A stretch of DNA of 64,000 nt from Terebella lapidaria (lineage: Eukaryota; Annelida; Polychaeta; Terebellida; Terebellidae), in NCBI GenBank assembly GCA_949152475.1, contig OX424562.1, forward strand, positions 24,180,209 to 24,244,208, written 5' to 3'. The stretch's first letter is position 1; every line of letters begins with the position of its first letter. The notes under the pieces are model-generated. The model saw only the letters and a program-made list of their open reading frames with translations, did not search any database and was not told the origin of the DNA. The position numbers were made by a program, and so were the translations under genes. Shown one piece after another: positions 29,789-63,071 of this stretch.

Positions 29789-30538
29789 ATGGTACTGAAA
29801 TCTGACCAAGAGCGGGTGATGGCATTGTTGAAAGACACAATCACGCTTCTGTGCAAGAACGGCCTGAACTTCAAGACCAAGTTCTGTGTTGATGCTGTGA
29901 TTGGGGTGACTGTTGATGAAGAGGAACTTTTCTACGTGTCCGTGAAAGAAGTGGTGAAGACGGAGAAAGGAGGAGAGACAAAGTCTGATTCATCAGGAGA
30001 AGAAGCAAGCGAACTAGGTGAAAGCCCAAGGAAGCGGCGCAGGAAAAGACGTCTGAAAGCTGGAGGTGATGAATCAAACGGAGAATATGGCGGTGACGGA
30101 CTGGGTTTGGATGAAGACGGGGCACAGGCAAGCGCCAGTTTCTCTGGAATGGAAGGAGGACAGCAAAACCCTGCAGCCGACAAACGTCCACGTATAAAGA
30201 ATGAAGACGGAGGAGAAAACAGCGACGAAGATATAATGTTCATCAAGCAGGAACTCGATGAGAACAGCGCCTGGTCACAAAGGTCGGAGGATACTAGTAG
30301 CGCGTTGATGTACCAGGGTTTCGGTGGCCATTCGGGGACAGATTCACAGCAGGACCAGAATTTCCCGTCATTGAGTGAAATGACTCTAATGCCGATTGAT
30401 TCAGGAGAAGGGCCCAGCGGAACATGGAGCAACCAGCAGCAGCAGCCCAGACAGTTCAAGCCTAGGGGACCAAGAATGTCCTCTTCTACACTCGAGTCCA
30501 GTCAGCTACAGCCAGGAGATGGGCCTGACAATCAGCAG
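29789..30538 (+). CDS. N-terminal exon of a zinc-finger transcription factor-like gene
   Basis: Acceptor TTGCTGTTGCAG lies just before the ATG at 29789. The exon encodes 250 residues and ends at a perfect donor CAG|GTGAGA in phase 0. Residues 1-60 form a compact domain beginning MVLKSDQERVMALLKDTITL and running through GVTVDEEELFYVSVKE. A basic signal RKRRRKRRLK (81-90) and three sumoylation consensus motifs follow (VKTE 56-59, IKNE 136-139, IKQE 152-155) in an acidic, serine- and glutamine-rich linker. This is typical of a nuclear repressor or activator lacking its own DNA-binding domain. I pair it with the terminal zinc-finger exons at 62184 and 62820. Reading through the donor adds 35 residues before a stop at 30646, a possible intron-retention form. 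An upstream coding exon cannot be excluded, but the ATG makes this exon the likely start. Confidence 0.72.
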
Positions 30539-32410
30539 GTGAGAGCAAACTTCACCAACATTTCTGAACGCAAAAGGAATCCACAGACTACAAGCATTGA
30601 CATTGAGGATTTTATTGCACTGGCCCTTTCAGGTTATTTGGGTTAGGGTCTTAGTGGACCGAGAAAGTGCGGAAACGCCAGGGCCTTGTAAAAAAAAAGT
30701 GTTGAGTTGAACAGCTATGATGCGTAAATTGAAGAATAAATCATTAGAGTGGCTTTTATTTTTTTTATTTCATCTGAAGTTCATCTCGTTCTTTGGGATT
30801 ACGTCATGTTTGAATACTAGTATAACATTTGAAGATGAATCTACAATGTCTGATGTCCACTACAGTATGTCTGTTCGTTGTTTATGCGCTGGAGCTCATC
30901 CTCCATGCCCTCAGCACAGCCAGTGGCCCATCGCACTTGAGCCTGGGGAATGCACAGTGCATTGCTTCTCAGTAAAAGAACTGTTGAGCGGGAGGTCATT
31001 AATTACCTTTTATTGCGGTCATTTGGCAGGACAAGATAGTGACAGCCCAATAAAAATGTTTGGAAGACGAAATCAAAACATGAACCATGAACAGTTTTGA
31101 TATGACTGCTCGTGTGTGCATGTGTGCCCGTGTAGGCGTGTATTGGTATTTTATATCGTAATCTCTAAAATTTTCATTTTGATATCAGGCCGATAATCAA
31201 GGAAATTCTGGTGGTCCTTTTGGGCCACTGTAAAGTCATATTTGGCGGCCCGACCATGTTTCTTCAGTGGCCCTGGGCCACCGGGCAAGTGCTATTGTCG
31301 AGCCCTGAGCAGTGTTTCATTTTGAATATGTGATTTAAGAGGAGTCCCGGAGACTTGCATATCTGAAAATCTTGAGTCCTTTTGAAATACAAATTGTTAT
31401 GCAAGTTTTTCAAACAATTTGAACTGAAGTCCGAGGTATTTATAATGCGAGGCGCAGTACCTCATTAACCATTTTTCGAATAATTTGAACCGAGAATCTG
31501 TCTGGCTTATTTATCACTCTATCAATTAATATTATTAGTTATTATGATATCTATTGTGCTATTTAAATGTTGTATCCCCCCAACGGCGGATACTATGGAT
31601 TTGCGATCGTTGCGCCGCGTCCGCACCAACATCCGCAAAGACTTTCAAGATTGTGAACTCGCAGCAGGTTGCAAATCTCAACTGATTAAATGATCATTTT
31701 TCACAGAGACATGTCTTATGGTACGATCATGACACCAATCGATTTTGGTTGCCATAGCAACCAATTTGGTCGATTGGCGACACATTTTGTGCTCAAATTG
31801 GCCGGTTCAGCATACATGGTTTGTGAACGCTCTACTAACATGACTAAGGGTGTAAGTTTTTGAATAATGATGATGCAGTCCAACAGGCTCAAAAGACAAT
31901 CAGACGAAACCTATTGTTTTTCCTATTGATGAAACAAATATTAATTAGTGAACAAGCTAACTATGACAATTAAAATACTAGTATCCACTTTGACATCTGT
32001 GATCAATAACTTACACTAAGAGCAAATGGCACTGGATTCTTGTTCAGAATATAGAATTGATGTTTCTGTTGAAAACAGAACATCATAACCAAATCTATTA
32101 TTGACCACAATAAGAAAAGTTGAGACCAGAAACATTTATTATTGGACTCAGTAAGGTAAAAGTTTTATCTAGTAGAGATTGAATGGTTGTAACTGAATGA
32201 GTTAATTTACTAACTAAGTCCGAGATGATAGGGCTACGGTGGATACACCCCAGCGGTCGTCGGCGACTGAATAGTCTATGCTATTTATGCTATTTCAGAG
32301 GTACAATTTATGCTATGCATGATATTATTTATGTTAAAAATCTTATACCATGAGATAATGACATGAGATCAGAATGATGTAAGTAGTATTGCAATAAAAT
32401 GTGTTTGTTT
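30539..32410. other. Intron sequence, mostly unremarkable
   Basis: Follows the donor at 30538. A fragment resembling the right end of the 41.2-kb MITE (CGGGCAAGTG and AGCCCTG words) lies at about 31190-31310. No exon is recognised. Confidence 0.4.
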
Positions 32411-33917
32411 CGTCGTCCGTCGTCATCCACATTTTTATCTTTTTTGTTTACGGGTGAATTCTTCTGAAATTTTGCACAAAAATACTTAAAAATAATTCAA
32501 GAAGGAGGTATTTTTTAGTTTTTTGATTTTCGCATTTTTTTCAAAATGGCGGCCGTTTTCGACGAAAAATGCCTGATTTTGGACTTTTTCTCAAAATCTG
32601 TTCAGTAACTTTTTTTCTTTTTGATACATAACACTCCTGATATGTACTCCTATGATGTCTATAAATTTCGTTGCGCTTGAATCGCTCGACCATTTTGGCC
32701 CAAACTCGGCCCAAATGGGACTTTCCCATGTTAAATTCTCCTATGCTTTATAATGGGACACATTATGCCTAATATCTCACTTAATATTGAGATTAGAGAC
32801 TAGGAATCAATTGTGGACATATAGGAAATGATATATGCTGAATATTCTCGTGACCTTGAATTTGACCTCTGACCTCAATTTCAAGGTCAGAGCACAAAAT
32901 GGCTGATATCTCGCTTATTATCGACTCTACAGCTTAGGAATCAATTGTGGACATATAGGAAATGATATATGCTGAATATTCTGATGACCTTGAATTTGAC
33001 CTTTGACCCCATTTTCAAGGTCAGGACAAAATGGCCAATATCTCGCTTGTTATCGACTTTACAACTTAGGAATCAGTTATGAACATATAGGAAATGATAT
33101 ATGCAGATTATTGTCATGACCTTGAATTTGACCTTTGACCTCGTTTTCAAGGTCACAGGACAAAATGGCTAATATCTCACTTATTATCGACTCTACAGCT
33201 TAGGAATCAATTGTGGACATATAGGAAATGATATATGCTGAATATTCTGATGACCTTGAATTTGACCTTTGACGGCATTTTCAAGGTCATAGGACAAAAT
33301 GGCTAATATCTCGCTTGTTATCGACTTCACAGCTTAGGAATCAGTTATGAACATACCCGTATTGGAAATGATATATGCAGATTATTGTCATGACTTTGAA
33401 TTTGACCTTTGACCTCATTTTCAAGGTCACAGGACAAAATGGCTAATATCTCACTTATTATCGATTTTACAGCTTAGGAATCAATTGTGGACATGTAGGA
33501 AATGATATATGCTGAATATTCTCGGACCTTGAATTTGACCTCTGACCTCTTTCTCAAGGTCCAAGGACAAACTGGCTCTTATCTTGCTCCTCTATTGACT
33601 GTATGGCTTGGGAATCAATTGTGGACATGATATAGAAAATGATATTGTGGACATGATATAGAAAATGATATACACTGAATATTTTGATGACCTTGAATTT
33701 GACCTTTGCCCCTTCATTTTCAAGGCCACAGCACAAAATTGCTAATATCTCGCTGATTATTGAATTTACAGCTTAGCAATCAACTGTGGACATGATATAT
33801 GCTTAATGTTATATATGCTGAATATTCTCTTGATCTTGAATTCAACCAGTGACCTGGCTAACATCTAAAATATTAAACATTGTCCGGTAACCTATCTTTG
33901 GCCCTTGGCCTAATTTT
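32411..33917 (+). mobile_element. Helitron-like family B element with ~134-bp satellite array
   Basis: Starts inside a (GTCC)-like head (CGTCGTCCGTCGTC) without the 5' palindrome seen at 50350, so it is 5' truncated. A conserved head of about 400 bp precedes some eight monomers of about 134 bp (about 32820-33860). It ends TGTCCGGTAACC and a hairpin GGCCCTTGGCC, then TAATTTTTT. Head and tail variants match the element at 54638-55966 more closely than the others, suggesting a subfamily. Confidence 0.7.
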
Positions 33918-34193
33918 TTATGAGCCTTATCTATCTGTGTGATGTATGATGCTTAAAATCAATAAGCAATGACATGTCAAGAAACATGTAGCAGTATTCA
34001 AGCAACAACTGTACTATGAGTACGACAGGCGTCGTAAGCGGCTGATGTTCATGTTCATGATCATGTTCAATATTGCAAGTTGGTAATGAAAATATACAGA
34101 ATATTGGCCAATTGTGAACTGCAATTCCTGTTTTGCCATGGGAAATGCCGATCATCGCACACTCAAGCAGCGATCGAGAATTTGATTACTGTA
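33918..34193. other. Short spacer between elements
   Basis: Nothing recognised. The last six bases (ACTGTA, 34188-34193) are the target duplication of the next element. Confidence 0.4.
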
Positions 34194-34778
34194 CAGGGCT
34201 CCCGATAGTGTAAAATAATGCGTAATTATGCATGACTTTTTGAAATTTATGCAGTGCTATCACGGCCAGTGCGTATGATTACGCACTCGAAAGATATGTG
34301 GAAACTAATTTAAAAACAATGACATCGTTTATTAGCTCAAAAAACGAAGTTCTAGAAAATAATCAAACAATGTCAATTTCCGCCAGAGACGCATGCGCTA
34401 TGCACTCGCTGGCGAATAAGTTGTGGGACACGTCATCAAAATTCGAGCACAATAAACTGCCGCGCCCCCGTGCGAATGGCTGCAACATCGAAAGCCTATG
34501 TTTGCGCCCCCTTGCGAATATAAATTTAAGGATTTCCCCACTTTCATTTCTTCAACATGACTCGACAATGAATTGACGAACAAGTGCATTTTCTGCAAAA
34601 GAAAACCTTCAGAACTGCTGTGGGCAAGGGCAATCGTTGACCATTAGGAATGTGCTGAAATTTTGAGAAAAAAACCTGGAGGATATGCGAGATTTGAAAA
34701 CATAATGGGAGCTGTCACTTTGACTGAAGAAAAACAAAATCACTGTACATCCATGTTTATTTTATACATCACCAATCT

Positions 34779-34945
34779 AAACTACTACATGCTCCTTTTC
34801 GATCCTTTGGATCGTTCTGGATAGAAATTCGCGTACTGAAAGCAAGGCACGATCGTCTGCCTGCATGACTCGAGCGCTCCTTTTGCCGCCAAAACCGCCG
34901 CGCATATGCGCGCGCAGCTGCGCAGAAGCTTCACTTTTCTGTCCA
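34779..34945 (+). repeat. Left inverted terminal repeat of the DIRS element
   Basis: 167 bp, inverse of 40924-41090 with no difference seen. Contains a GGATCG-centred palindrome and a GCGCATATGCGC palindrome. Confidence 0.88.
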
Positions 34946-35356
34946 CCGCCATTTTTGCTTGGCAGCTTTGGATTTTGGTTCCCGGTGAATTCGTAGAATT
35001 TAGTCTGCAAACTAGACTTTTGCGATATATTCTTACGGAATTTCACCTGCCACGTTCATAGACATCGTTTTGTGTCTATTTGGATAAGTATCGGTCGATA
35101 GTTTGTTACTTGCTAGATCGTCAGCGATTTGTTTAGCCAGTTCACCCTATTATCGTCCATCCGTCGTACTTGATAGTGTACTTGTTGTTTACATCTATCA
35201 ATAGTTCTACGTTAATTTTCTACTGTATATATTGTGTATACGTATACTGTAGTTTATATATTCGTAGTCCTCTTAGGGTTCTTTTTTCAGCGCGGTCTCA
35301 GGTTTGCATATTTTGCCCGCCCTGTTACTGTGTGTGGTTAGTTCCCTTGTGTGATC

Positions 35357-37456
35357 ATGACTTCACAATCCTCCCTTGGTACCGGTGCCATGGACGAACG
35401 TCCATGCCCGAAGTGTCTGGTCAATACCCTCCGAGGAGGGGAGAAACACAGTGTGTGTTTCGACTGTTTAGACCATGGCCCGGTATCTATGGAGGATTTG
35501 AGGTGTGATCTGTGTCGTTTCTGGCGTCCCTCTTCCTTCGTGCAGGCGACTGCAAAGTATTCCGAAGCCTCGTTGGCTCGTCGGGATGCTTTGAGGCTTG
35601 CGGAAGCTTCGGCTCCGCAAGTCCGCCAGTCGCCCATGGAGGTGGAGACTCCGCCTGTGACGGCACAGATTGCGTCCGGTGTTAGCCAGCCCCTGGGGCT
35701 AACACAGGACATGGTCAACGCGGCTGTGCAATCTTTCTTTGCACAGTCGTTATCGTCCCTTCAGGGTCCCCTCCTGCCGGGTCTCTCTTCCCTGCTTGGA
35801 CAGGGAGTCCCGGCCGGTTCTTCGGCTGCCCCTTCGTCGCAGGGAGAGCTTGCTCCCCCTGCTGGCAAGAAGTCGAAATCTTCTAAGAAGAAGGTTTCAG
35901 TTCTTGCCAAGGCGAAAGCAGCCAAGGAACCGCACTCCACCTTCGTCGTCCCTCAGTCGGGGCCGATCGAGGTGGAGGGGTCCGTAGTCTCTTCCCCGGG
36001 GCCTTCCAAGAAGAGGAAGCGTGCTTCCTCTAAGCGCCGTGGTGCTGAGACCACATCGATTTTCGATGTGGCTCAGGCTTCGTCCGACCTCTCGGTGGGC
36101 GACGATCAGGCTTCGGGCTTCGATCGGCGGGGCAGCTTGGATGGCTCATTCGGGTCCTCGGTCTCGAGGTTCGAGGGGGGAGAGTTCCCTTTGTTTGGGG
36201 GTGAGGCTCTCGATCGTTCGTGCGATCGGGAGTCTTCACTTGGCGGTCGTGCTCCTGGTCCTCGATCAGGGCACGATCGGGCGGGTGGTGCTGGGGTCGT
36301 TCCTCAGGGCCACTCAAGTCCTGTGTACGCGGATGTAAGTCGCCGGACGGGCGCGATCGCTGAGCAGGCATTCCCTCGCCCGTCCTTTGATGTACCCTTG
36401 GGGTCATCGAGGTCTTCGATCGGACCTGTGAGGTCCAACGATCGGGGGGGTCGAGTGGAAGCTGATCAGGAGTCGTCCTCCTCGGAGGATGAGACTTCCG
36501 ATCAGGCCGGGGGTTCTAACTTCCGGTGGGCTTTGGAGTCGGTCGCAAGGCGAATGGACTTGCCGATCGATGCTCCAGGGCCCTCACGGGGAACCGGTAG
36601 GTTCGCGTCGGCGCCAGTTCGTCGGCCGATCCGGCTCCCTGTGGCTCCCGCGTTGGTCAAGTCTTTCGACAAGATCAACAAGGGAGTTACGGCTAAGAAG
36701 GATGTGGCTCGTACGGAGTCGACATTCCCGACTAGCCGTGTTCGACCTGAGTCGATCGACACCTATCGGACTGTAGAGTCCGAGGGTGGACATCAGACTT
36801 CCGTCCCGGTCGAAGACCCTAACCTTCACCTGCTTTCCCGGAAGCAGGGTACGGTCTGGTCAGCTTATGTGAAAAAGGCTCGCCTTTCTCACTGGCAGAC
36901 GCTGTCTCATCAATTGATGGGGCAGCTCTCGTTGACAGATCACCTGACCACCTTGGTTCAGGAGTTTGTGGACGAGGCGGATCTGGAGGAGGGGAGTCGC
37001 GCCAACATACATGCAGCACTCGGCGTCTTGGCCGGAGTGGTCCATGCTGCTGAGCGTGACAGTGCGCACCTGGGCGCACAATTGGATCTCACCATGCGTG
37101 ATGCTGATCTCCGTCTGCTTGACGTGTCCGCTACGGACGTCGCTGAGCTACGTGGGAGGCCGCTTTTCTCAGGCTATACCTACGCCAACCTCTCTCGATC
37201 GGATATTTCCGTCATGCGGGAACATCTCCGGGATGAGGCTATGGCCAAGGCTTTGCTTGGGAAGTCGGCGGGGTCTGGGACAGGCAAGAAGACCAAGGGT
37301 CAGAAGCCTGCCCAGCCTCAGGCACCACATGCACCCGCTTCTACGCAGCCGCCCTTTCGTGGGGCGCAGCCTCCCCCTCCCCAGGGGGATGGCAAGCGCG
37401 GAGGCAAAGGGGGTGGACGCTTCAAGGGCAAAGGGAAAGCTTCTGGTAAGAAGTGA
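35357..37456 (+). CDS. DIRS ORF1, gag-like protein
   Basis: A protein of about 699 residues from the ATG at 35357, which I prefer to the upstream in-frame GTG. The N-terminus has a cysteine-pair cluster (CPKC, CFDC, CDLC). The middle is Ser/Pro-rich with lysine-rich patches, and the C-terminus ends in a Gly/Lys-rich basic tail, suitable for nucleic-acid binding. By position and composition this is the gag-like ORF of DIRS elements. It overlaps the start of the polymerase frame. Confidence 0.75.
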   Translation: MTSQSSLGTGAMDERPCPKCLVNTLRGGEKHSVCFDCLDHGPVSMEDLRCDLCRFWRPSSFVQATAKYSEASLARRDALRLAEASAPQVRQSPMEVETPPVTAQIASGVSQPLGLTQDMVNAAVQSFFAQSLSSLQGPLLPGLSSLLGQGVPAGSSAAPSSQGELAPPAGKKSKSSKKKVSVLAKAKAAKEPHSTFVVPQSGPIEVEGSVVSSPGPSKKRKRASSKRRGAETTSIFDVAQASSDLSVGDDQASGFDRRGSLDGSFGSSVSRFEGGEFPLFGGEALDRSCDRESSLGGRAPGPRSGHDRAGGAGVVPQGHSSPVYADVSRRTGAIAEQAFPRPSFDVPLGSSRSSIGPVRSNDRGGRVEADQESSSSEDETSDQAGGSNFRWALESVARRMDLPIDAPGPSRGTGRFASAPVRRPIRLPVAPALVKSFDKINKGVTAKKDVARTESTFPTSRVRPESIDTYRTVESEGGHQTSVPVEDPNLHLLSRKQGTVWSAYVKKARLSHWQTLSHQLMGQLSLTDHLTTLVQEFVDEADLEEGSRANIHAALGVLAGVVHAAERDSAHLGAQLDLTMRDADLRLLDVSATDVAELRGRPLFSGYTYANLSRSDISVMREHLRDEAMAKALLGKSAGSGTGKKTKGQKPAQPQAPHAPASTQPPFRGAQPPPPQGDGKRGGKGGGRFKGKGKASGKK

Positions 37457-40400
37457 CTCGTTGCGGGAAAGCGTAGGCTCTGTGGAAGGTTCAGTTCTTT
37501 CGGAATTCGATCTTCCACAACCTGGTCCAGTCGGGGGACGCCTGGCTCAGTTCGTCCGGAACTGGAGCGATCTGGCGTCGTCAGACAATTCAGTCGTGGC
37601 ATGGGTGAAGTTCGGTCTCACCTTCAGATGGGAGGCTGGAAAACCACCGATCAGACCCAAAGCGTGGTTCTTCCCTGTGCCCGGCGATCGGGAAAAGTTT
37701 CAGCTTCTGCAGCACGAGGTGCAGCAGTTGCTAGAGAAACGTGCGATCGAGGTGGTCAAGGACGAGAGAGGATTCTATTCTCTCATCTTCCTAGTGCCGA
37801 AAAAGACAGGCGGGTGGCGTCCCGTTTTCGATCTGTCAAACCTCAACAAATTCCTGATCATACCCAGGTTCAAGATGGAGTCGGCGCTTTCCGTCCAGAA
37901 AGCTCTGTCCAAGGGGAAGTGGGCAGTCAGTATCGACGTCAAAGACGCGTACTTACATGTGCCAATACACCCAGCTGATCGGCGATACCTCAAGTTCGCC
38001 TTCGAAGGTTCGGTGTATCAGTTCAGGGTACTTCCTTTTGGAGTAGCCACCGCCCCTTACGTGTTCACCCGTATCGTAAGGACGATGGCAGCCAGGTTTC
38101 GATCGGTTGGAATTCAATTCCACCATTATATCGACGATTGGTTAATCATAGCCGACTCCCCGTCTCAGGCTATAGAGCAATCCGGGTTCGTCCTCAGGTT
38201 GGCGACCAGCCTCGGCTGGATCCCCAATTGGGCGAAGTCTCATCTGTCCCCGACACAGAGGTTCGAGTATGTCGGGGTAGATTACGATCTAGAGCGAGGA
38301 GTAGCTCTTCCTCCGCGGAAGAGAGTTCTCAAGGCGATTGCGGCGATGGAGGTCGCGCTGACGCAGTCGTCGATCACAGCTCGACAGTTTCTGTCCATCA
38401 TCGGTCTGTTGGCGTCGATGGAGAAACAGGTGCCGTTCGGCAGGTGCTTCCTCAGACCCATTCAATGGTGTCTAGCGTTGCAATGGCGGATACTCACCGA
38501 TCGACTAGACCAAGTCGTATCGGTGGACGATCGTGCTCGGGAAGCAATGCATTGGTGGCGGGACCATCGGAATCTTTTCCGAGGGATGCCACTCGCGGAG
38601 TATCTGCCCGATCGGACCTTCTTCACCGATGCGTCAGAATTGGCTTGGGGAGCTCATATGGACGAGCACGAACTCTCTGCTGTGTGGAACACGAGCGAGA
38701 GGGCGTTGCACATCAATGTCCTAGAGCTGCGAGCGGTGAGACGTGCGTTCGAGATCTGGGGGCCTCAGAGTCCCCCAGGGACGAAGTGGTTGGTCTTCAC
38801 AGACAACAGCACAGTAGTGGCGCACATAAACAAACAAGGTGGAACTCGGTCGAGTCAGCTTTGTTTGGAGGCCGAGTGTCTGATCAGGTTTGCCTTCAAG
38901 TACCGTCTGTTTATCAGGGCGAGGCACCTGCCGGGTCACAGGAATGTCCTAGCGGACGCTCTGTCGAGACCGGACAAGATCATAGGCACGGAGTGGAGTC
39001 TGCATCCGGGGGTGTTTCGGCGCGTTTGTCAGGCGTTCGGGACACCGAACATAGACCTGTTCGCAACCTCTCGGAATCACAAGCGCCCGGTCTACTTCTC
39101 ACCTCTGCCAGAGAGCGAGGCACTGGCTGTGGACGCGATGTCTCAGTCGTGGGACGGGATGTTCGGGTATGCGTACCCGCCAACTCGATTCCTAACAGAA
39201 GTGCTGCACAAAGTAGCCAGGTCTCAGTGCGAGATTCTGTTGGTGGCGCCATGCTGGCCGATGCAGGCGTGGTTCCCCCTGCTACTGTCCCTCCTGATCG
39301 ATGTACCACGGGTTCTCCCGATCGAGGACAGGTTGCTGAAGCAGCCCGGGGCGGGATATATTTCACGATTCCGTCCACGTGCTCAAATTACACGTCTGGA
39401 GGCTATCGAGCGATCCTTCCAGGAGGCAGGATTTTCTCAGCAGGTGTCCGTACATCTCGCGAGAAAGAATAGGAGATCCTCCTCTAAAACGTATGAGGCT
39501 AAATGGAGAGTATTCGTACGTTGGTGTAACGGAAGGCGCATTGATCCGCTCTCTGCCCCTCTGAATGCAGTGCTAGACTTTCTCTGCTATCTCTTTGATA
39601 GGCTTAATTTGAAGCCTACTACGATCGAGGGATACAGGTCCATGCTGGGCCCTGTATTCCGTGCTAGGGGGATCGATTTAACTAATAATCGTATCCTTGC
39701 TGATCTCTTGGCGTCCTTTAGGACGCAAAGGCCACGTGGAGTTCCTACTCTACCGGATTGGGACATGGCTTTTGTGCTATATTGTCTTACTAAAGCACCT
39801 TGGGAGCCTCTCAAGGAAGTTTCCTTGCAGAGGTTAACTCTTAAGACTTTCCTGCTAGTTATGCTAGCAAGTGGTCGAAGACGCTCAGATGTCGCGGCGA
39901 TCGACGTATCGCGAGTCGCATTTGGCGCGGATGGGTCCGTTTCCTTATACCCAGTACGTGATTTTATGCCTAAAACACGTGCTGCAGTTGAGGGCGGGAA
40001 AGCGTTCTCCCCTATCGTAATTCCGTCACTGGGCGGTTACGTAGGACGGAATGAGCCGGACGCTCTATTGTGTCCGGTAAGAGCGCTGAAAATCTACATC
40101 GATCGTACCAGATCGATCAGGAAAGATCGCAAGCGATTATTTATTTCCTATCAGCCTAACAGGGCTACGGATATCTCCACAGCTACACTATCCCGATGGG
40201 TGAAGGTTGTAGTGAGGACTGTCTATGCGGAATCAGGTGCTGACGATCGAGTCACTTACAAAATATCGTCCCACCAAATCCGACACATCTCGATGTCTTT
40301 GGCGGCCAGGTCGAATATTCCGTTGGAATATATCGTGAGGGCTGGAATGTGGACTAATTCTACGACATTCATCGGGTTCTATCTGTCCAATGCTGCCGAA

Positions 40401-40862: not shown

Positions 40863-40923
40863 GTAAAGGCCCTCCCATCCATCCCCGCCAGTTATGTGCT
40901 AGGGGCTTCCTTTTGTCGTTTGT

Positions 40924-50349: not shown

Positions 50350-53300
50350 AGGTTACCGGACCTATGGTCCGATAACCTATTGGCATGGCGTTGCGTCCGT
50401 CGTCCGTCCGTCCGTCGTCCGTCCGTTCACATTTTTATCTTTAAAGTATATGGTCCAATCATTCTGAAATTTTGCACAAAAATACCTAAAAATATTTCCA
50501 GGAAAGGTTTTTTTTAGTTTTCTGATTTCCGCATTTTTTTCAAAATGGCGGCCATTTACGACGAAAAATGCCTGATTTTGGACTTTGGCGGCCGTTCTCT
50601 CAAAATCTGTTCAGTAACTTTTTTAGGTTACCGGACCTATGGTCCGATAACCTATTGGCATGGCGTTGCGTCCGTCGTCCGTCCGTCCGTCGTCCGTCCG
50701 TTCACATTTTTATCTTTAAAGTATACGGTCCGATCTTTCTGAAATTTTGCACAAAAATACCTAAAAATATTCCCAGGAAAGGTTTTTTTTAGTTTTTTGA
50801 TTTTCGCATTTTTTTCAAAATGGCGGCCATTTTCGACGAAAAATGCCTGATTTTGGACTTTGGCGGCCATTTTCTCAAAATCTGTTCAGTAACTTTTTTT
50901 CTTTTTGATACATAACACTCCTCATATGTACTCCTGTGATGTGTATCAGTTTCGTCGCGCTTGAATCGCTCAAAGTGGGCCATTTTGGCCCAAACTCGGC
51001 CCAGATAGGACTTTCCCATGTTAAACTCTCCTATGCTTCATAATGGGACACATTACGCCTAATATCTCACTTAATATTGAGATTAGAGACTAGGAATCAA
51101 TTGTGGACATATAGGAAATGATATATACTGAATATTCTCGTGACCTTGAATTTGACCCCTGACCTCGGTTTCAAGGTCAGAACGACCATTTTCGTCGAAA
51201 AATGGCCCATTTTGGACTTTGACGATCGTTTTCTCAAAATCTGTTCAGTAACTTTTCTTCTTATTGATGCATAACACTCCTCATATGTACCCCTGTGACA
51301 TGTATAAATTTCATTGCCCTTGAATCATTCGAAGTGGGCCATTTTGGGCCCAAACTCGGCCCAGATGTGACTTTCCCATGTTAAATTTTCCTATGCTTTA
51401 TAATGGGACACATTAAGCCTAATATCTCACTTAATATTGAGATTAGAGACTAGGAATCAATTGTGGACATATAGGAAATGATATATGCTGAATATTCTCG
51501 TGACCTTGAATTTGACCTTTGACCTCATTTTCAAGGTCACAGGACAAAATGGCTAATATATCGCTTATTATCGACTTTACAGCTTAGAAATCAATTGTGA
51601 ACATATAGGAAATGATATATGCTGAATATTCTCGTGACTTTGAATTTGACCTTTGACCTCATTTTCAAGGTCACAGGACAAAATGGCTAATATCTCGCTT
51701 ATTATCGACTTTACAGCTTAGGAATCCATTGTGAACATATAGGAAATGATATATGCTGAATATTCTCATGACCTTGAATTTGACCTTTAACCTCATTTCC
51801 AAGGTCACAGGACAAAATTGCCAATATCTCGCTTATTCTCGACTTGACGGCTTAGGAATCAATTGTGAACATATAGGAAATGATATATGCTGAATATTCT
51901 CGTGACTTTGAATTTGACCTTTGACCTCATTTTCAAGGTCGCAGGACAAAATGGCCAATATCTTGCTTATTAGCGACTTTGCAGCTTAGGAATCAATTGT
52001 GAACATATAGGAAATGATATATGCTGAATATTCTAGTGACCTTGAATTTCACCCTTGACCTAAATTTCAAGGTTAGTCTTTTTATTTTCAAGGTCAGAAT
52101 ACAAAATGGCTTATATCTCGCTTATTATCAAATTTACAGCTTAGAGGTCCCTAGTGAACATATAGGAAATGATGTATGCTGAATATTTTGGTGATCTAGA
52201 ATTTGACCTTTGATCTCATTTTCAAGGTCAGAGAACAAAATGGCTAATATGTCGCTTATTATCATCTTAACATCTGCCCCTGATGATGCCAGTGTGTCTT
52301 TGGATAAACTATTTGGTCGGGCTTTGTTTCTATTGCAAAATGTTGTATTTTACGTTTCTTATTGGCATCATCAAAATTTGATTGTATTGGTGGTAATAGA
52401 TTGATACTTACATTTATACCACTGAGTCGGTGTCACTGCTGGCGGACGTTAAATCTGTCCCCGAGGATACCATCAACTCAGTAGCCTTCGGGCTTGTGAT
52501 TGGGTACTTTTGTACTTGTCATGTATCTATTCCATGGGGTTAGATTCGGATTTCTAAATTATTTTCATAGGTTGTTGGGCAGTAGTATACTAATTCCATC
52601 TGGTGTACAGTAGAAACAACTACATTTAACACATTGTCTGCCCCTGAAGACGCCAGTGTGTCTTTGGATAAACTATTTGGTCGGGCTTTGTTTGTTTCTA
52701 TTGCAAAATGTAGTATTTTACGTTTCTTATTGGCATCATCAAAATCTGATTGTATTGGTGGTAATAGATTGATACTTACATTTACAGCATAGGAATCAAT
52801 TGCGAATATAGAGGAATGATATATACTGAATATTTTCATGACCTTGAACTTGAACTTTGACCTCATTTTCAAGGTCACATCACAGAATGGCTAATGTCTC
52901 ACTTATTATCGACTTTACAGCTTAGGAATTTATTGTGGACATACTAGAAGTGATATATTTGTTAAAAATTTCATGGCCTTGAATTTATCAGTGACTTTAT
53001 TTTCAAAGTCACTGGACAAAAGGCTAATATCTAAAATGTATATTGTCCGGTAACCTTTCTTAGCCCTTGGGCTAATTTTTCTTTTTGATACATAACACTC
53101 CTCATATGTACCCCTGTGACATGTATAAATTTCGTTGCGCTTGAATCGCTCGAAGTGGGCCATTTTGGCCCAAACTCGGCCCAAAGGGGACTTTCCCATG
53201 TTAAATTCTCCTATGCTTTATAATGGAACACATTAAGCCTAATATCTCACTTAATATTGAGATTAGAGACTAGGAATCAATTGTGGACATATAGGAAATG

Positions 53301-54637
53301 ATGTATGCTGAATATGCTCATGACCTTGAATTTGACCTCTGACCTCGGTTTCAAGGTCAGAGCACAAAATGTCTAATATCTTGCTTATTATCGACTTTAC
53401 AGCTTAGGAATCAATTGTGGACATATAGGAAATGATAAATGCCGAATATTCTGATGACCTTGAATTTGACTTTTGACCTCATTTTCAAGGTCACAGGACA
53501 AAATGGCTAATATCTCACTTATTATCGATTTTACAGCTTAGGGATCAATTGTGGACATATAGGAAATGAGATATGCTGAAAATTCTCGTGACCTTGAATT
53601 TGACCTCTGACCTCGGTTTCAAGGTCAGAGCACAAAGTGTCTAATATCTCGCTTATTATCAACTTTACAGCCTAGGAATCAATTGTGGACATACTAGTAT
53701 AGGAAATGATATATGCCGAATATTCTAATGACCTTGAATTTGACCTTTGACCTCATTTTCAAGGTCACAGGAAAAGTGGCTAATATCTCGCTTCTTATCG
53801 ACTTTACAGCTTAGGAATCAATTATGAACATATAGGAAATGATATATGCAGATTATTGCCATGACATTGAATTTGACCTTTGACCTCATTTTCAGGATCA
53901 CAGGACAAAATGGCTAATATCACGTTTTTTCTCGACTTTACAGCTTAGCAATCAATTGTGAACATATAGAAAATGATACATTCTGAACATTGGCATGACC
54001 TTGAACTTGACCTTTAACCTCATTTTCAAAGTCGCAGGACAAAATCGCTAATATCTCGCTTATTATCGACTTTACAGTTTAGGAATCAATTATGAACATA
54101 TAGGAAATGATATATGCTGAACATTGCTATGACCTTGAATTTGACCCTTGACCTCATTTTCAAGGTCAGAGAACAAAATGGCTAATATCTCGCTTTTTCC
54201 CGACTTTACAGCTTAGCAGTCAATTGTGAACATATAGAAAATGATATATTCTGAACATTGTCAGGACCTTGAACTTCACCTCTGGCCTAATTTTCAATGT
54301 CACAGGACAAAATGGCTAACAGCATGCTTATTATCTACTTTACAGCTTAGGAATCAATTATGAACATATAGGAAATGATATATGCTGAATATTGCTATGA
54401 CCTTGAATTCGACCTTTGACCTCATTTTCAAGGTCACAGGACATAATGGCTAATAGCTCGCTTATTATTGACTTTACAGCTTAGGAATCAATTGTGGACA
54501 TACTAGAAATGACATATGCCGAATATTATCGTGTCCTTGAATTGACCAATAACCTTATTTTCAAGGTCACGGGACAAAATACTAATATCTGAAATATCTA
54601 TTGTCCGGTAACCTTTCTTAGCCCTGGGATAATTTTT
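50350..54637 (+). mobile_element. Helitron-like family B element, outer copy
   Basis: Starts with a 29-bp imperfect palindrome (13-bp arms, AGGTTACCGGACC / GGTCCGATAACCT, loop TAT) at 50350-50378, then a (GTCC)-rich head. It is split by an inner copy at 50625 and resumes at about 53081. The resumed part carries about ten ~134-bp satellite monomers and ends TGTCCGGTAACCT plus a hairpin TAGCCCTGGGATA, then a T-run. GTCCGGTAACCT near the 3' end is the inverse of AGGTTACCGGAC at the 5' end. T-rich target, subterminal inverted repeats and internal tandem repeats fit Helentron-type non-autonomous elements. Confidence 0.65.
50625..53080 (+). mobile_element. Helitron-like family B element, inner copy
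   Basis: A complete-looking copy of about 2.45 kb: 5' palindrome at 50625-50653, GTCC-rich head, conserved head region, about ten to eleven satellite monomers (about 51060-53040), 3' end TGTCCGGTAACC and hairpin TTAGCCCTTGGGCTAA, then a T-run. It sits inside a T-run of the outer copy, whose text continues directly after it. A ~155-bp block beginning CTGCCCCTGA is present twice inside (from about 52265 and 52629). No Rep/helicase frame is present. Confidence 0.7.
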
Positions 54638-55930
54638 TATCTTTTTTGTTTACGGGCGAATTTTTCTGAAATTTTGCACAAAAATACTTAAAAATAATTC
54701 AAGAAGGAAGTATTTTTTAGTTTTTTTATTTTCGCATTTTTTTCAAAATGGCGGCCATTTTCGACGAAAAATGCCTGATTTTGGACTTTGGCAGCCATTT
54801 TCTCAAAATCTGTTCAGTAACTTTTTTTCTTTCTGATACATAAAACTCTTCATATGTACTCCTATGATGTCTATAAATTTCGTTGCGCTTGAATCGCTCG
54901 AAGTGGGCCATTTTGGCCCAAACTCGGCCCAAATGGGACTTTCCCATGTTAAATTCTCCTATGCTTTATAATGGGACACATTATGCCTAATATCTCGCTT
55001 AATATTGAGATTAGAGACTAGGAATCAATTGTGGACATATAGGAAATGATATATGCTGAATATTCTCGTGACCTTGAATTTGACCTCTGACCTCAGTTTC
55101 AAGGTCAGAGCACAAAATGGCTTATATCTGGCTTATTATTGACTCTACAGCTAAGGAATCAATTGTGGACATATAGGAAATAATATATGCTGAATATTTT
55201 CGTGACCTTGAATTTGACCTCTGACCTCAGTTTCAAGGTCAGAGCACAAAATGGCTTATATCTCGCTTATTATCGACTCTACAGCTTAGGAATCAATTGT
55301 GGACATATAGGAAATGATATATGCTGAATATTCTGATGACCTTGAATTTGACCTTCGACCTCATGTTCAAGGTCACAGGACAAAATGGCTAATATCTCGC
55401 TTGTTATCGACTTTACAGCTTAGCAATCAATTATGAACATATAGGAAATGATATATGCAGATTATTGTCATGACCTTGAATTTGACCTTTGACTTCATTT
55501 TCAAGGTCACAGGACAAACAGGCTAATATCTTACTTATTATCGATTTTACAGCTTAGGAATCAATTGTGGACATATAGGAAATGATATATGCTGAATATT
55601 CTCGTGACCTTGAATTTGACCTCTGACCTCATTTTCAAGGTCCAAAGACAAACTGGCTCATATCTCTATTGACTGTATGGCTTTTGAATCAATTGTGGAC
55701 ATGATATAGAAAATGATATACATTGAATATTTTGATGACCTTGAATTTGACCTTTGCCCCTTCATTTTCAAGGCCACAGCACAAAATTGCTAATATCTCT
55801 CTGATTATTGAATTTACAGCTTAGCAATCAACTGTGGACATGATATATGCTTAATGTTATATATGCTGAATATTCTCTTGACCTTGAATTCAACCAGTGA
55901 CCTGGCTAACATCTAAAATATTAAACATTG
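51060..55930 (+). repeat. ~134-bp satellite monomers with nuclear-receptor-like sites
   Basis: About 27 to 30 monomers spread over the three family B copies, period about 134 bp (for example starts at 51541 and 51675). Each typical monomer holds TGACCTTGA, then TGACCTTTGACCTCA, then TCAAGGTCA, followed by ACAAAATGGCTAATATCTCG. TGACCTTTGACCT is a DR1 arrangement of the AGGTCA half-site. The two flanking words are the extended half-site TCAAGGTCA in opposite orientations. Confidence 0.8.
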
Positions 55931-55966
55931 TCCGGTAACCTATCTTCGGCCCTTGGCCTAATTTTT
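54638..55966 (+). mobile_element. Helitron-like family B element, 5'-truncated copy
   Basis: Begins within the head (ATCTTTTTTGTTTACGGGCG) immediately after the previous copy. It carries about seven or eight satellite monomers and ends TGTCCGGTAACC, hairpin GGCCCTTGGCC, TAATTTTT. The last 350 bp closely match those of the 32411-33917 copy. Confidence 0.65.
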
Positions 55967-56611
55967 CTTTTCTATTTTCTTACGGTATTGATAATTATGT
56001 ACACCAAATATCGATTACCAAATATGCATTGATTTAGAAGTAATTTTTTCTTCAAAATTAAATTTTTAAAAACTATATGTAAGAAATTTTAGCTTTACAA
56101 TTCAGATTTTTCAGGGTACAATCTATGCACAATTGTTTTCCCATTTTCTATCATGTGATGAGAACCATAGCTATAGATCTATAAAAAAAATATATATACT
56201 AAAACAATTTGGAAATAAAGTTGCGAACAAAACTTAAACATCAAGCCTAGTGGTATTTTTTATTGCTTGTATATATTTTGTTGTTAAGAATTAAAAAAAA
56301 GAAGATTTTATCTAAACTAATATATAATGACAAGCCTAGGCTTACAATTCTGGTGGGGCGGTGTAACCTAGCTGATAATAACAGATAAAACAGCAATCTA
56401 CATGTAGATGACAGGTCTATTCCAAAAAGGGAGTTGATATGATATTGTTTTGTTTGTGGAACTAAATACAGCAGAACTAATAAATTTATTTCAAAATCTG
56501 GCCAATGAACGCGTGCACCACGATGTCTGTATCGGACTAGGTCTGCTGTCATCACGTTATGATAACTGCCTCAGACCTCTGTACGTTAGTGCATTTAGCG
56601 TATATGGTGCG
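55967..56611. other. AT-rich sequence, nothing recognised
   Basis: No element ends or domains seen. Confidence 0.35.
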
Positions 56612-56821
56612 TTATGACGACATGATTCTGAACCCATGTGACGTACCGGGCTCGAACAGCTTCGTGATGCTTTGAGCAAACTTTACATTTGCTTTGACAG
56701 CTTTGTCATCTTCATTATAGATGAATTCGTATGTGTTTTTGAGATCGTCATCCCAGTCATCGAGTGTCGTTTTCAGCACAGCCCTTTTTTGGCTTACAAC
56801 ATCAGATTTTTTGCTCGACAT
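56612..56821 (-). CDS. Candidate first exon of the hAT transposase
   Basis: The ATG at 56821 opens 69 codons beginning MSSKKSDVVSQKRAVLK, with coding-like composition, acidic and lysine-rich. Donor-like words GTACGT and GTTCAG lie near codons 57 and 63. The second would give the phase needed by the exon starting at 50287. I did not recognise a BED finger, so the link rests on position, strand and phase only. Confidence 0.3.
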   Translation of the reverse strand: MSSKKSDVVSQKRAVLKTTLDDWDDDLKNTYEFIYNEDDKAVKANVKFAQSITKLFEPGTSHGFRIMSS

Positions 56822-57110
56822 GATCTGATGATCGGCTGCTCGAATCTGCAGACGATGTCTTCTGCAGAGAAACTAGGTCGTAACCTGGCAACAAAGGTTC
56901 ATGGTTCACGACGCATGCACAGACGAAAACAAACGGCAGGATGAAAAAAAGCACGATCGAAATTATGACCCGCCGGTTTAGATTCTCCCATGAAAATATC
57001 GCGAAAACTTTACAGGATTTCAAGATTTAATTGCGCGAATCAACGATGATTCTCGTGTGTGGAATTTTAGGCGAATCACGGCGCGAATCGATTCGTATTC
57101 ATCTAGGGTT

Positions 57111-57843
57111 TTAGTCCCCTAGAGTTCCTGTTCTTTTGTTATGATTATAGTCTTTTTGGATCGAAGAAACATGAAAAAATGTTTGTGACATACCCAGATT
57201 CTCCACCAAATGCAATGGTCTGTTTCTCAGATATTAATTGAGACATATTACCGGGGTACGGGACCGTATGTCACGGCCTCTGAATGAAGTGAGGTGCCAC
57301 ATCATTAGAAGTCCAGACTAATTTCCATTTGATTTATTAATGTCCAATCATAAGTGCTACATGTATTTGTTAAATAAGGATGTTCCAAATATTGTAGAGT
57401 CAGTAAAACAGTTCCAATAGAAGACCCAAAACGTAGCCATGAGCTCTCCTGTTTCCCTTTTTGTTTACCCCATAATGTTATGTACATAAAATTAACGTTT
57501 CTGTCCCCTCGACAGGTGTGGCTCGGCTGGTGCCGTCCGGCACTGTCATATTGAATTTTTCTTCCCTTTACACTATTCCAGATATTATCATTTATACAAT
57601 GTTATGAACTGATCATTTACCATCTATATTATTAATTATATTAATTACAGCCATATTGAATTTCCAAAATATAACATTATTACTGACTGAATACAAAGCC
57701 AAGACTGTGATTGGCCAATTACAAGGGTGATATAAACCCGTATTCTGACTATCTAATTTGGCACGCGCCACCTTCGATACGAGTTCCCGTATCCCTTGCA
57801 AGTCTCCTTTTCAGTCAGTGATGAGTTCAATACCTCGTTGCCG
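57111..57843. other. Intergenic or intronic, nothing recognised
   Basis: Short frames only, with no repeat ends identified. Confidence 0.35.
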
Positions 57844-57953
57844 GTTTACGAAATACGGAATTATATTTACATCTAGTTGTCTGTATCCCGCTCGGCCTTC
57901 GGCCTGATGGGATACGGACAGCTACACGTAGACATAATTCCTATTTCGTGAAC
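57844..57953. mobile_element. 110-bp hairpin MITE
   Basis: Inverted arms of about 45 bp, from GTTTACGAAATA to TATTTCGTGAAC, with a few mismatches. The centre is CTCGGCCTTCGGCCTG, which itself forms a small hairpin. The whole element folds on itself. No target duplication was established. Confidence 0.6.
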
Positions 57954-59230
57954 AAACATGGAATAACCAATAATTTCCATTTAGGGATGAGTGGGATGGT
58001 TGCAGAACCTCTGGGTATTGGGTTTGATAATAACAGCATTCTTTACATGAACTTTAGTTAATGTTCTGATATAGCTTGATTTTTGGCATTACCAGTATTT
58101 TGTTCATCCCAGTTTTCAAATGAACATTTCACTCATACCAAATAAGCAGATATGTGATTGTATTAGTGGTACATGATTATATGTCAGACTGAGATATTTT
58201 ACTTTTTTGACCTGAGGAAAGCCTCATAAAATTCTAACTACTTGACTACTAACTCAATTATGTGGAGTTATGTAGTGTACTACTAATGCCATAACAGTTC
58301 AGCTGTTGCTGTGACCTCCATTGATTTATTTATATATCATATGCCATGGCTATTATGGTCATTAACATATATACGTGTATAGAAATATATGATTGTCAAA
58401 TATGTTATTCAGTTTATACCAATGGCATAGATATATAACTATATATGGGGTCAAGCGATATTTTTTCATCAATGGGGTCAAAAGAGTAAATCTCCACTGT
58501 TTGTTGAACACAAAGACGGAAATAGCATATTGTTCTTGATAATTTGACTGATTCACCCAGTACTATTTAAATTCAGCTGTTGATACTGATAGATAACAGT
58601 GGGGATTTACTTGTGATGATGGAAAATATACATTGAGACATGACATTACATGCATCACAAAAACAAGAAGCTGTCGGCTGCCTAATGCAGCTGTTTGGAA
58701 CTGAACAGCAGATTTATGCTGTTCTTCGCAATCCTACATTTGAATTGTGGATTTTTTTTTGATCGTCCAAAGGTTTATGTTTGCTCAGTTGTGATTTATA
58801 GGCGTTTGGAAATTAGTCAATGGTTTTATGTTTTGGATTATCAATCAGATGGAGGAATATTGTTGTCATCTCCAGATGATAAATCGTACTATGGTTTTGT
58901 TCATGTTACTGCTTGGCCATGGTCCATGTGCGTATGGTTTCCTTGTAATCATATCACAGAGCACCATAATGAGCGAACTGTTTCATAATTATAGTATTAA
59001 GTATTCCACCAAACGGCAATTACCACTGCTCTCACTCATTGAATGCTGTTTCATGTGCTTGGGCATATTCACACCCCTCGCCTGATTGTAACGGTCGTCT
59101 CTGGGCCCCATAATTTATGCCGGTGAACAATAATTCATCCAAGGCTGCCGCGGGATTTTCTGGGAGATGTTACAATGTGTCTTGGATCTTGGTTATCGGT
59201 GTTAGAGGGTCGGAAAGTTCTAGCACTATC
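57954..59230. other. Intronic or intergenic, nothing recognised
   Basis: AT-rich. A plus-strand open frame near 58695-58988 has no recognisable domain and no splice support. Confidence 0.35.
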
Positions 59231-59306
59231 CGAGTGACGAGTAATGTATTTTCATGTGCTGTGTGTTCCGAGTGACGAGTAATGTATTTTCATGTGCTGT
59301 GTGTTC
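59231..59306. repeat. 38-bp perfect tandem duplication
   Basis: Two identical adjacent units beginning CGAGTGACGAGTAATG, followed by CCAG. Confidence 0.85.
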
Positions 59307-59949
59307 CAGAACAATTGAGCAATTTTGAATTCAAAGAACCAGTGGGGACTGTGTGTTTGATTATGTTCAGAATATTTCAGCGTCAATGTGTGAATATTTT
59401 TTATCCAGTCAGTGAACGACTGATTTTATGCACTGGGCCCATACGTTTTCACGATATTTGTAACTGTTGTTTATAGTTTTTTTTTCCAAGTAAATGCCTT
59501 CTTCACATTTTTATTCCAGTGCAAGACTGCTAGTTCTGATTTCGCTCTTACGCTATGATGACGTTAAGAAAACTCTCAACAAATTGGTTTTCTTTGGCAT
59601 ACACAAAATCTTCAGCACTTTCGTATACTATTAATTTGATGATCGATTGCAGTGGGTTGATAATGTTGTTTGATGGTTCATAATTTGGGTCGTATTTACA
59701 GCGTGATGAAGTGTGGTATCCGTCATGAATGTTCTGGTAATGAGAGATGATGTCTAGCATACTAGTAGATCGCAACTGTACTCTTTCTAATTGTTCAGTG
59801 AAAGTAACTTGCCACTGAGTCCTTTTTGTCCATATGCTGGGCAGCTTTTCCCATGTTTGTATTTTGATCCCATATTGATCATCAAAAAACCTTTCTTCAG
59901 GTTTTCAATCCCATTCCATAAATCATTCTGGTGTTCCATAGTTGGTCAC

Positions 59950-61165
59950 TATCTGATCATATTGTTGATAGCCATGTTTCTGTTGTGTGTCCATGTTGTG
60001 AAATCCATGTTCTGTAGACATTGCAGACCTCCCTCATGTTCTGTAACAGATGACTTTCTCCTGCGAGATCTCTGTTGGGAAGCCTTGGGCCCAAAGATGA
60101 GTCAACAACTAGTAACACATACTTGAAGCCATTTACGTGAGGAAGGGGTTCGAAAATGTACATGAACACGCCTGAAGATTCCCTCTGCAGGCATTGACTT
60201 TTGTGGTGCTTTGTGCTGCTACGCTTGTCTTTTTGTTTTGCTGACTGTACATACTTCTTCATCTCGCAGTACTGTACATACGCAGACACCTCCCCCACTC
60301 GACACCTGAAATGGCCTTCTTGGGCCCAAAGTGCCGTTAAACTTTATTCCTTCTTCTTCTCCCCCCACTCGACACCATCTATCATGCTCCAGGTTTCATT
60401 GATCATATTTCATGCTTTTCAGAAAAGTGGTTTCAACAGTTTTTAAATTCAGAGAATCATTTGTAGGTTTTTTCTTGGGTCGTTTTTCTCCAAAATTCAA
60501 CAGGTTCGTTCTCATACGAGTGAATATAGAGGGAGTAATGTGGTGTCGAACCTCATTCGAGTGAATATAAAGGCAGTAACGCGATGTCAATCTTCATTCG
60601 AGTGAATATATAGAGGCAGTAATTCGGTGTCAATCCTCATTCGAATGAATATAGAGGCAGAAATGCAGTGTCAATCCTTGTTCTAGTGAATTTAGAGGCA
60701 GTAACGCGATGTCAATCCTCGTTCGAGTGAATATAGAGGCAGTAATGTGGTGTCATTTATTCAGAGGCAGTAATGCAAGGTGACATCACAACATATGTCA
60801 CCTCGTCACGATATTTTTTTCGAAATGTAACAACATATTGCAATGGTGATATGTTGAGGAGAACCGGGTTGAATTCGTTTGGGCTCTGTGAGAAGTCGTA
60901 TGGTAGGCGCTTGAACTGGTACACATCGTGGTCGTTGGGGTGAACGCTATCTCGTGTGGGGTTTTATTTGTGGGAGTGCTTTGTGACGGTATTTTGATAT
61001 TCAGACATTTGAGATCTTGTTTGGGCGTGATGAGTTCTGCAGACACTGGCGGAATGCATACAATTACGGCATACCACACAAATTTTGCATAGTGCTGGAT
61101 ATTTCCGGTTTTGTATGTTTTTTTGAAGCAATGTGATGTTTCTTCATTGTTCGCTGGACCCATTC
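59950..61165 (-). mobile_element. Broken Gypsy-like LTR retrotransposon fossil
   Basis: On the minus strand, an integrase-like piece lies at about 59957-60298 (FEPLPHVNGFKYVLLVVDS), and pieces resembling reverse transcriptase lie at about 60800-61163, upstream as expected for a Gypsy pol order. It is heavily broken, with several disruptions. LTRs were not identified. An old insertion. Confidence 0.5.
60505..60780. repeat. ~47-bp minisatellite, about six copies
   Basis: Units share CGAGTGAATATAGAGGCAGTAA and TGTCAATCCT-like text in two blocks, with roughly 85-90% identity by eye. It lies within the Gypsy-like fossil. Confidence 0.8.
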
Positions 61166-62183
61166 ATACACTTCATCAGATGTGGTTGATTCGAGTTCTT
61201 CAACACCGAGAAATCGTGGAATCACATTGCCGTGTACATTCAAATACAGGATGCAGCTCTTGGTCTGTGACCTGTCTCACTGACTCATAAATGTCTTTTT
61301 GTGATGAATGATGAATGTATCTGTAAGTCGATTGTATTGTACGGGCCCCGTACCACCTCTGCACCATTCAAGTGCTGCATCTTGAACAGTGCACCAGTCT
61401 TTGAGGATGGGATACGCTCTTTTGCTTGTTTGAGTCACAAATTCAGCATGAACTGACTCAGCTGAACTTTATTTGGGCTACCTTGAACATCTTTACCTTT
61501 CATCGCTGTGAAATGACTGCGGGATGACGCATGTTTGCCGAGGTCATTTTTGTTCGGCAGGTTCGGCAAAAAAATTCTCTGCATCGCCGTACCTACTCAC
61601 CATAACCACTGTATCTGTACTTGCTGGAATTGTATGTGAGTCGAAGTCCAAATACTCTCGTCCATTGTGTTTTGAGGTCTGCAGTTTGAGCATGTACACA
61701 TGTGCAAATATATCTAAAAACTCTATTCCTGATGTCACGTCACTTGTGCAACGATACGATTTCTACGCATCTATTAACTGATTACTGATGACTAAATATG
61801 CACCCGAGAATTTTGATTGTTTATTGATGAAGAGATTGCCTGTCAAGAGCTGAACCCTGAAGATTGTGATGCTCCCTCAGCGAAAAAAAAAAACCAGGTT
61901 TCCCTATTGACACCAAATGACATTAGTGACACTGCTGCATCTGTATGCCAAAGTCTCATGGTCCGTTCACCTTTCATCAAATATTGCAAGCGACTTCACT
62001 CGTTTGAACCATTCACATTGACAGATATAGTGAGATCTCACTCTGGTTTTATGTTATCTGATATCACCAGGCCTTCCAGGATTGTAAACTTGTAGTTGTT
62101 TTCGCAGAATCACACCGTTAAAATTCATTCATGATAGATTGTAGCATCGTACATGTTTAATTTTTTTTCCATCTAATTTTCAG
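61166..62183 (+). other. Presumed end of the long intron before the zinc-finger exons
   Basis: No supported exon. It ends in a pyrimidine-rich tract and TTTTCAG at 62183. Confidence 0.4.
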
Positions 62184-62444
62184 AATTTTCCATACAGTTG
62201 TTCAGTCTGCCACAAAGGAGTGTCGAGTCGGGCAAGTCTTCGAAGACATGAAAACGCACATAAAGGCATATTTCCACATAACTGTTCATTTTGTGAAAAA
62301 GGATTCCTCTCAACGGATGGATTGCGAGGTCATCTTTATCTACACACTGGACACAAAGCATACTCGTGTAATTCGTGTGGTGAACGCTTCAGATACGAAC
62401 AGAGCCTGAGATATCACAGATCAAAGTGTGCAGGAAATTCTTGA
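62184..62444 (+). CDS. Alternative terminal exon A: three zinc fingers
   Basis: Acceptor CTAATTTTCAG, phase 0. Encodes 86 residues and a stop. Finger 1 is C2H2 (CSVCHKGVSSRASLRRHENAH) and finger 2 is C2H2 (CSFC, then GFLSTDGLRGHLYLH), joined by a TGHKAYS linker. Finger 3 is C2HC (CNSCGERFRYEQSLRYHRSKC). Putative contact positions -1, 2, 3, 6 read S-A-S-R, S-D-G-G and Y-Q-S-Y. The exon has no initiator and must be spliced to an upstream phase-0 exon. The donor at 30538 is the only matching candidate recognised. An AATAAA at 62658 gives it its own 3' end. It would bind DNA and set target choice for its isoform. Confidence 0.82.
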   Translation, partial: NFPYSCSVCHKGVSSRASLRRHENAHKGIFPHNCSFCEKGFLSTDGLRGHLYLHTGHKAYSCNSCGERFRYEQSLRYHRSKCAGNS

Positions 62445-62657
62445 TAGAGATAGATCGCACACTTCAGTTGTATGTTGTTTCTTGTTGTCGATAAAATTCT
62501 ACTTTTGCATTTATATTGGTGCCAGTTATGGTTGAATATCACGTTTGTTTGTCACGGGAGTAACTATATCAAAGCCAGGTTATGTGAAAGAAGCTGCACA
62601 TAATCCTCATTGATTTATACATTCATTTCCATACTCTCCATATTTCCGAACTCGATG

Positions 62658-62663
62658 AATAAA
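62658..62663 (+). terminator. Polyadenylation signal for exon A
   Basis: AATAAA 214 nt after the stop at 62444 and before exon B, which fits a separate 3' end for the exon A isoform. Confidence 0.6.
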
Positions 62664-62819
62664 CTGGATCGGCATGAATGAGATCTGTCGACGTCATTCG
62701 GATCATAACTGTATTCTGAGGTCTAATTCAGCAAGAAAGTGTAATCCTGTTATGATTTGATTTACAATTTTTGTTTTGAAATTTAACAAATGAAAAAAAA
62801 ATGTACACATTGTTTTCAG

Positions 62820-63071
62820 ACTGGCCCTCACGAGTGTACCACGTGTCACAAGGTTTTCCAGTGGAGTTCATCGTTGAAGCGCCACCTTAAAACACACAGT
62901 GGTATTTATCAATACAGGTGTGAACAGTGCGATAGAGGCTTCTATACGGCCGAGGATTTGCGAGGACATATGTATATTCACACAGGAATACGCCAATACC
63001 GCTGTTCCGTTTGCGGCCGAGACTTTCGTTACAAACGACAAATGGATGAACATAAATGTTCAACATTTTAA
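62820..63071 (+). CDS. Alternative terminal exon B: three zinc fingers
   Basis: Acceptor CATTGTTTTCAG, phase 0. Encodes 83 residues and a stop. Fingers are CTTCHKVFQWSSSLKRHLKTH, then CEQC with GFYTAEDLRGHMYIH, then a C2HC finger CSVCGRDFRYKRQMDEHKC. Layout, spacing and scaffold residues follow exon A closely (LRGH, FRY, the final C2HC), while contact positions differ: W-S-S-R, T-E-D-G and Y-R-Q-E. I read it as a tandem duplicate of exon A that has diverged in specificity. AATAAA at 63205 follows. It sits only 375 bp after exon A, and both use the same phase, so splicing into one excludes the other. Confidence 0.82.
   Translation, partial: TGPHECTTCHKVFQWSSSLKRHLKTHSGIYQYRCEQCDRGFYTAEDLRGHMYIHTGIRQYRCSVCGRDFRYKRQMDEHKCSTF

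Follow-up and report, generated by a model that had tools for sequence, protein, structure and literature searches.

In flies, the lola and mod(mdg4) loci make many DNA-binding or protein-binding factors from one common 5' part. The lola locus, as described in one account, has a common 5' part and many terminal exons, most of them with zinc fingers; the common region carries a BTB domain, and three isoforms are finger-less (PMC1947980). Similarly, mod(mdg4) is described as a common N-terminal exon followed by a variable 3' region, the ends of which are mostly of the FLYWCH type (PMC4667647). The TTK-type BTB present in lola and mod(mdg4) is, according to a further report, found only in arthropods (PMC11426971). 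The DNA considered here, referred to as the window, is a 64,000-nt stretch from the annelid Terebella lapidaria (GCA_949152475.1, contig OX424562.1, positions 24,180,209 to 24,244,208 of the forward strand). An earlier note, made from the letters of this window, proposed a lola-like locus with one 5' exon and alternative zinc-finger 3' exons. Our analysis indicates that such a locus is probably present, with a shared N-terminal exon (the N exon) putatively joined to one or the other of two alternative finger exons, A and B (Table 1). No non-arthropod locus of this design was recognised in the open-licence full-text literature, in a search that was not exhaustive and had preprints outside its scope.

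The N exon is a 250-codon open frame, from ATG 29789 to 30538, which ends in phase 0 with CAG and is directly followed by the donor GTGAGA. Among the 3641 GTs scored in the window, this donor ranks third. The frame around the exon extends over 296 codons from stop to stop, while 60 Markov-1 windows reach at most 231; its length is more than chance would give. A codon model was built from four training open reading frames (ORFs); of these, 8051 and 10852 lack a Pfam match and were treated as genes because of their coding appearance. When left out of training, the N exon scored 0.16 bits per codon in its own frame, while the other five gave values of -0.13 to -0.29. Among non-overlapping coding-like segments above 14 bits, it is the only one on the + strand between 25.3 and 35.3 kb, and downstream of it such + strand segments occur only within a DIRS-like element. 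The context of the ATG, as read in genomic DNA, has G at -3 and G at +4. An acceptor-like site ahead of 29787 (rank 74 among 3404 AGs) suggests at least one more exon upstream.

A Pfam scan of the 250 residues of the N exon at E up to 10, in which few matches above about 0.1 pass the HMMER filters, gave no family at its cut-off; no match to KRAB, SCAN or ZAD was among the results, nor any DNA-binding family above cut-off. The only family returned, STN1_2, was rejected as a candidate for the N-terminal domain (E = 0.044), its 14.1 bits falling short of the cut-off of 27.2. Among PDB sequences, nothing matches the N-terminal part at E<=10. For residues 1-64, an AlphaFold2 model built from that single 64-residue sequence has a helix (residues 2-23) and two strands in a beta hairpin, at low confidence (mean pLDDT 65). 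None of its 230 Foldseek matches in the PDB reached E<=0.001 (best E 1.1), and no fold was drawn from it. The translation also contains a basic run, a putative nuclear localisation signal (NLS), and three psi-K-x-E motifs (residues 56, 136 and 152), which may be SUMO sites. A mean of 0.30 such motifs was found in 5000 shuffles, with a probability of 0.0026 for three or more. Thus, the nuclear signal, the sumoylation-type motifs and the lack of a recognised DNA-binding domain in the earlier note were all recovered. Peptide patterns of the N domain gave 7 matches in viral contigs and 96 in genome contigs, and that of exon A gave one in viral contigs; none was confirmed. This says nothing on age, because the collections searched were non-animal.

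Exons A and B are homologous, with 32 of 77 residues identical, and have LRGH and FRY in common. The ligands of the first two fingers are intact in both, and the third finger ends in H-x3-C in A and in H-x1-C in B. The common scaffold that had been claimed for the two exons therefore holds for the shared motifs but not for the last finger. Codon differences between A and B are most frequent at third positions (50 of 77, against 37 at first and 28 at second positions), as would be expected for old duplicates under constraint. The positions taken to contact DNA by the usual finger numbering differ at 8 of 12, and other non-ligand positions at 37 of 54 (Fisher p = 1). The differences at contact positions pointed out in the earlier note are thus no special feature, and special diversification of the contacts is unsupported. 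Against PDB sequences, exon A matched 132 distinct entries at E<=0.001, with fingers of the ZNF568, HIC2 and ZBTB24 type among the best 60 of the 132. Like the fingers of these proteins, those found here are ordinary C2H2 fingers, and the resemblance is of a kind common to such fingers in general; the N-terminal part is without a PDB sequence match.

Both finger exons are entered by a phase-0 acceptor placed exactly five codons ahead of the first zinc-binding cysteine, at the positions given earlier (62184 and 62820). These acceptors rank 191 (A) and 349 (B) among the 3404 AGs, and 0.30% and 0.55% of window positions, respectively, have an acceptor at least as strong. The joint chance of both lying at this fixed offset is about 1.6e-5, and is higher if other offsets are allowed. 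The three fingers, the stop and the AATAAA of each exon were also found as claimed. However, an AATAAA would fall within the same distance by chance with a probability of 0.10 (A) and 0.066 (B), and the signals alone are weak evidence. No further finger exon was detected in the window by tblastn, and the window ends at 64000, 929 nt past B. It could be argued from this nearby edge, and from the unusual H-x1-C end of the third finger of B, that the N exon joins terminal or internal exons past 64000 and that either A or B, as part of an array, has decayed or is unused. This is improbable, given that both exons are open, with conserved boundaries and intact ligands in their first two fingers, and that AlphaFold2 (two-row alignment) predicts three beta-beta-alpha units for B, with a short helix in the last of them (mean pLDDT 74).

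Exon A has no ATG, and none occurs among the 13 codons between it and the upstream in-frame stop; it therefore needs a 5' partner. On the + strand between 30640 and 62150, stretches from an ATG to a phase-0 donor were counted as candidates if they had at least 40 codons and a donor score of at least 7. All six fall in transposon or repeat stretches, the intervals of which were set by hand: five lie in the DIRS-like element and one (48145-48312, codon score -17.9) in a hAT/repeat stretch, the transposon nature of which is partly assumed. Because all six lie in such stretches, no 5' partner better than the N exon emerged from the window under these thresholds. Its joining to A and B is thus argued by exclusion, and would be in keeping with the matching phase (0 at 30538, 62184 and 62820). 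The joined products would have 336 (N exon with A) and 333 (N exon with B) residues, the same lengths as in the earlier note. The anatomy of one 5' exon with alternative finger ends fits that note, with no better partner at hand, although the acceptor-like site at 29787 would add to the single 5' exon it assumed.

Several points weigh against this joining. The proposed splice spans 31.6 kb, a long intron, and the acceptors of A and B, in the top 6% and top 10% of AGs, are good without being outstanding. The splice-site weights are generic metazoan frequencies and were not trained on T. lapidaria. The codon model is negative on the finger exons (-0.31 bits per codon for A and -0.22 for B), and the scan could therefore miss similar short exons; 5' exons below 40 codons or with weaker donors fall outside the count. 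In addition, only two endings are seen, and B could be read from a start of its own, the in-frame ATG 62790.

Some of these points would also be accounted for by two genes, the first ending with the N exon (stop 30646, poly(A) signal 30735) and the second carrying the fingers behind short 5' exons that lie in 56-62 kb or are hidden by transposons. Besides the very long intron and the blindness of the codon model to the finger exons, and so perhaps to other short exons, such an arrangement would explain why the N exon reads through to 30646, with an AATAAA 89 nt beyond the stop and then a stretch rich in GT (0.70 of 40 nt). The earlier note had itself named an N exon ending only in its own 3' untranslated region as evidence against a shared exon. 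The exon can indeed be read to this stop and signal, yet the donor at which it closes is among the top three of the window by score. It also has SUMO-type sites and a run resembling an NLS, with no recognised DNA-binding domain, and no ATG-to-phase-0 stretch at the above thresholds lies outside transposon or repeat stretches between it and the fingers. On balance, two genes appear unlikely.

The ATG at 62790 lies in the presumed intron, 30 nt before exon B, with no stop between, and would allow B to be a small intronless gene. This seems very remote, as the context of the ATG is weak (C at -3, A at +4), its region overlaps the upstream tract of the acceptor, and the homologous exon A has the same boundary with no ATG. 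The absence of initiators reported earlier is thus true for A but has to be qualified for B.

Returning to a shared N exon, A and B are most simply read as alternative rather than consecutive ends, because A ends in a stop and is without a phase-0 donor, and an AATAAA follows each exon. Six donors with a positive score occur in exon A, the best two scoring 4.7 each in phases 1 and 2. As none is in phase 0, in-frame splicing from A to B is unsupported. From this layout we infer the joining itself, the mutually exclusive use of A and B, and a function of the products as nuclear factors. In the mechanism proposed, a single + strand gene would have the common 5' exon at 29787-30538, encoding a small domain, probably for protein-protein contact, together with the NLS-like run and the SUMO-type sites. 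Its strong phase-0 donor would be spliced to a single terminal exon out of a tandemly duplicated set of at least two. The three-finger DNA-binding end would differ from one member of the set to the next, and each would bring a stop and a poly(A) signal of its own. The choice of terminal exon would then amount to a choice of poly(A) site, because use of the signal of A removes B. A finger-less isoform made of the N exon only is also possible, because the frame stays open to 30646 and is followed by the AATAAA at 30735; arising when the donor is unused, it could compete with or modulate the other forms.

The locus resembles lola in having a common 5' exon without a recognised DNA-binding domain, phase-matched to variable exons, and several putatively alternative terminal zinc-finger exons, each with a stop and a poly(A) signal, which are known here from DNA sequence. 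Unlike in lola, no BTB was found in the N exon by Pfam, although an upstream exon could in principle add a domain, and two endings with three fingers per exon are seen against about 20 endings in lola. With mod(mdg4), it would share the common N-terminal exon and the predicted variable 3' ends, but neither BTB nor FLYWCH is among the Pfam matches listed: FLYWCH is absent from the 24 families of exon A and from the best 25 of the 39 for exon B. If spliced as proposed, the locus would work like lola, yet it does not appear to be a member of the lola/mod(mdg4) group, because no BTB or FLYWCH was found. The lola-like label of the earlier note therefore fits as a way of working and not as membership; its observations were partly confirmed and largely right, and its interpretation is partly supported. 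More tentatively, a non-arthropod animal may have independently evolved lola-type exon swapping, with an undescribed dimerisation-type domain in place of BTB, an array that continues beyond the window, and splicing coupled to alternative polyadenylation; we regard this as possible but somewhat doubtful. If true, it would mean that an independent origin of exon swapping is possible and that the design does not need BTB multimerisation.

Table 1. Features of the putative locus and its presumed intron (positions in the window)
Feature	Position	Strand	Description
Shared N-terminal exon (putative)	29787..30538	+	2 nt, then ATG 29789, 250 codons, phase-0 donor
Donor read-through	30539..30646	+	35 in-frame codons + stop; AATAAA 30735; candidate finger-less 285-residue product
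Presumed intron (to A)	30539..62183	+	31,645 nt
DIRS-like element	34776-41093		6.3 kb; 170-bp perfect inverted ends
Terminal exon A (putative)	62184..62444	+	three zinc fingers (C2H2, C2H2, C2HC), 86 residues + stop, no Met
AATAAA after A	62658..62663	+
Terminal exon B (putative)	62820..63071	+	three zinc fingers (last H-x1-C), 83 residues + stop
AATAAA after B	63205..63210	+

The presumed intron is rich in transposons and may, as the earlier note proposed, have taken up most of those in the window, the upstream sequence being annotated to a lesser depth. Listed repeat and transposon stretches, partly set by hand and with 50345-55966 counted whole, cover 17,218 of its 31,645 nt (54%). Tandem repeats of 134 bp form two arrays (32432-33918 and 50345-55966). 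The arrays share a 275-bp flank that is 99% identical (at 33644 and 55692), which suggests that one mobile element carrying the repeats is present twice. The element at 34776-41093, which has long open frames, is called here a DIRS-like retrotransposon because of its inverted ends, its reverse transcriptase and a phage-integrase match below cut-off; the latter two lie in one frame, and another frame of 701 codons has no Pfam match. Within the hAT part, a hAT C-terminal Pfam match was obtained only at 47274-48086, and the frames at 49078-50321, with no Pfam match above cut-off, are a hAT remnant by assumption. Rfam gave no matches at gathering thresholds. An ALOG-domain frame (44696-45415, - strand; E 2.2e-31) contains an exact 183-bp tandem duplication (44902-45084 and 45085-45267). 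Animal ALOG domains have been reported from DIRS1-like retroposons, and the same report places ALOG outside land plants and their algal kin in DIRS1-like elements or remnants of cnidarians, molluscs, echinoderms, Branchiostoma and a brown alga (PMC3537659). This distribution hints at a marine animal as the probable host.

Elsewhere in the window, stretches about 3.49 kb apart within 19057-24660 are identical over 300-bp families (19057/22543 and 20873/24361), and may reflect either tandem duplication in the very recent past or an artefact of the assembly. Two long coding-like frames on the + strand (8051-9073 and 10720-11805) have no Pfam match at E<=5 and are possibly one gene; the former matches no PDB sequence at E<=1 and contains a weak 28-residue internal repeat (E 0.001). 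On the - strand, a methyltransferase of the FkbM type (E 2.2e-05, above cut-off) is encoded in a single frame at 367-1470; a hydrophobic stretch lies at its N terminus.

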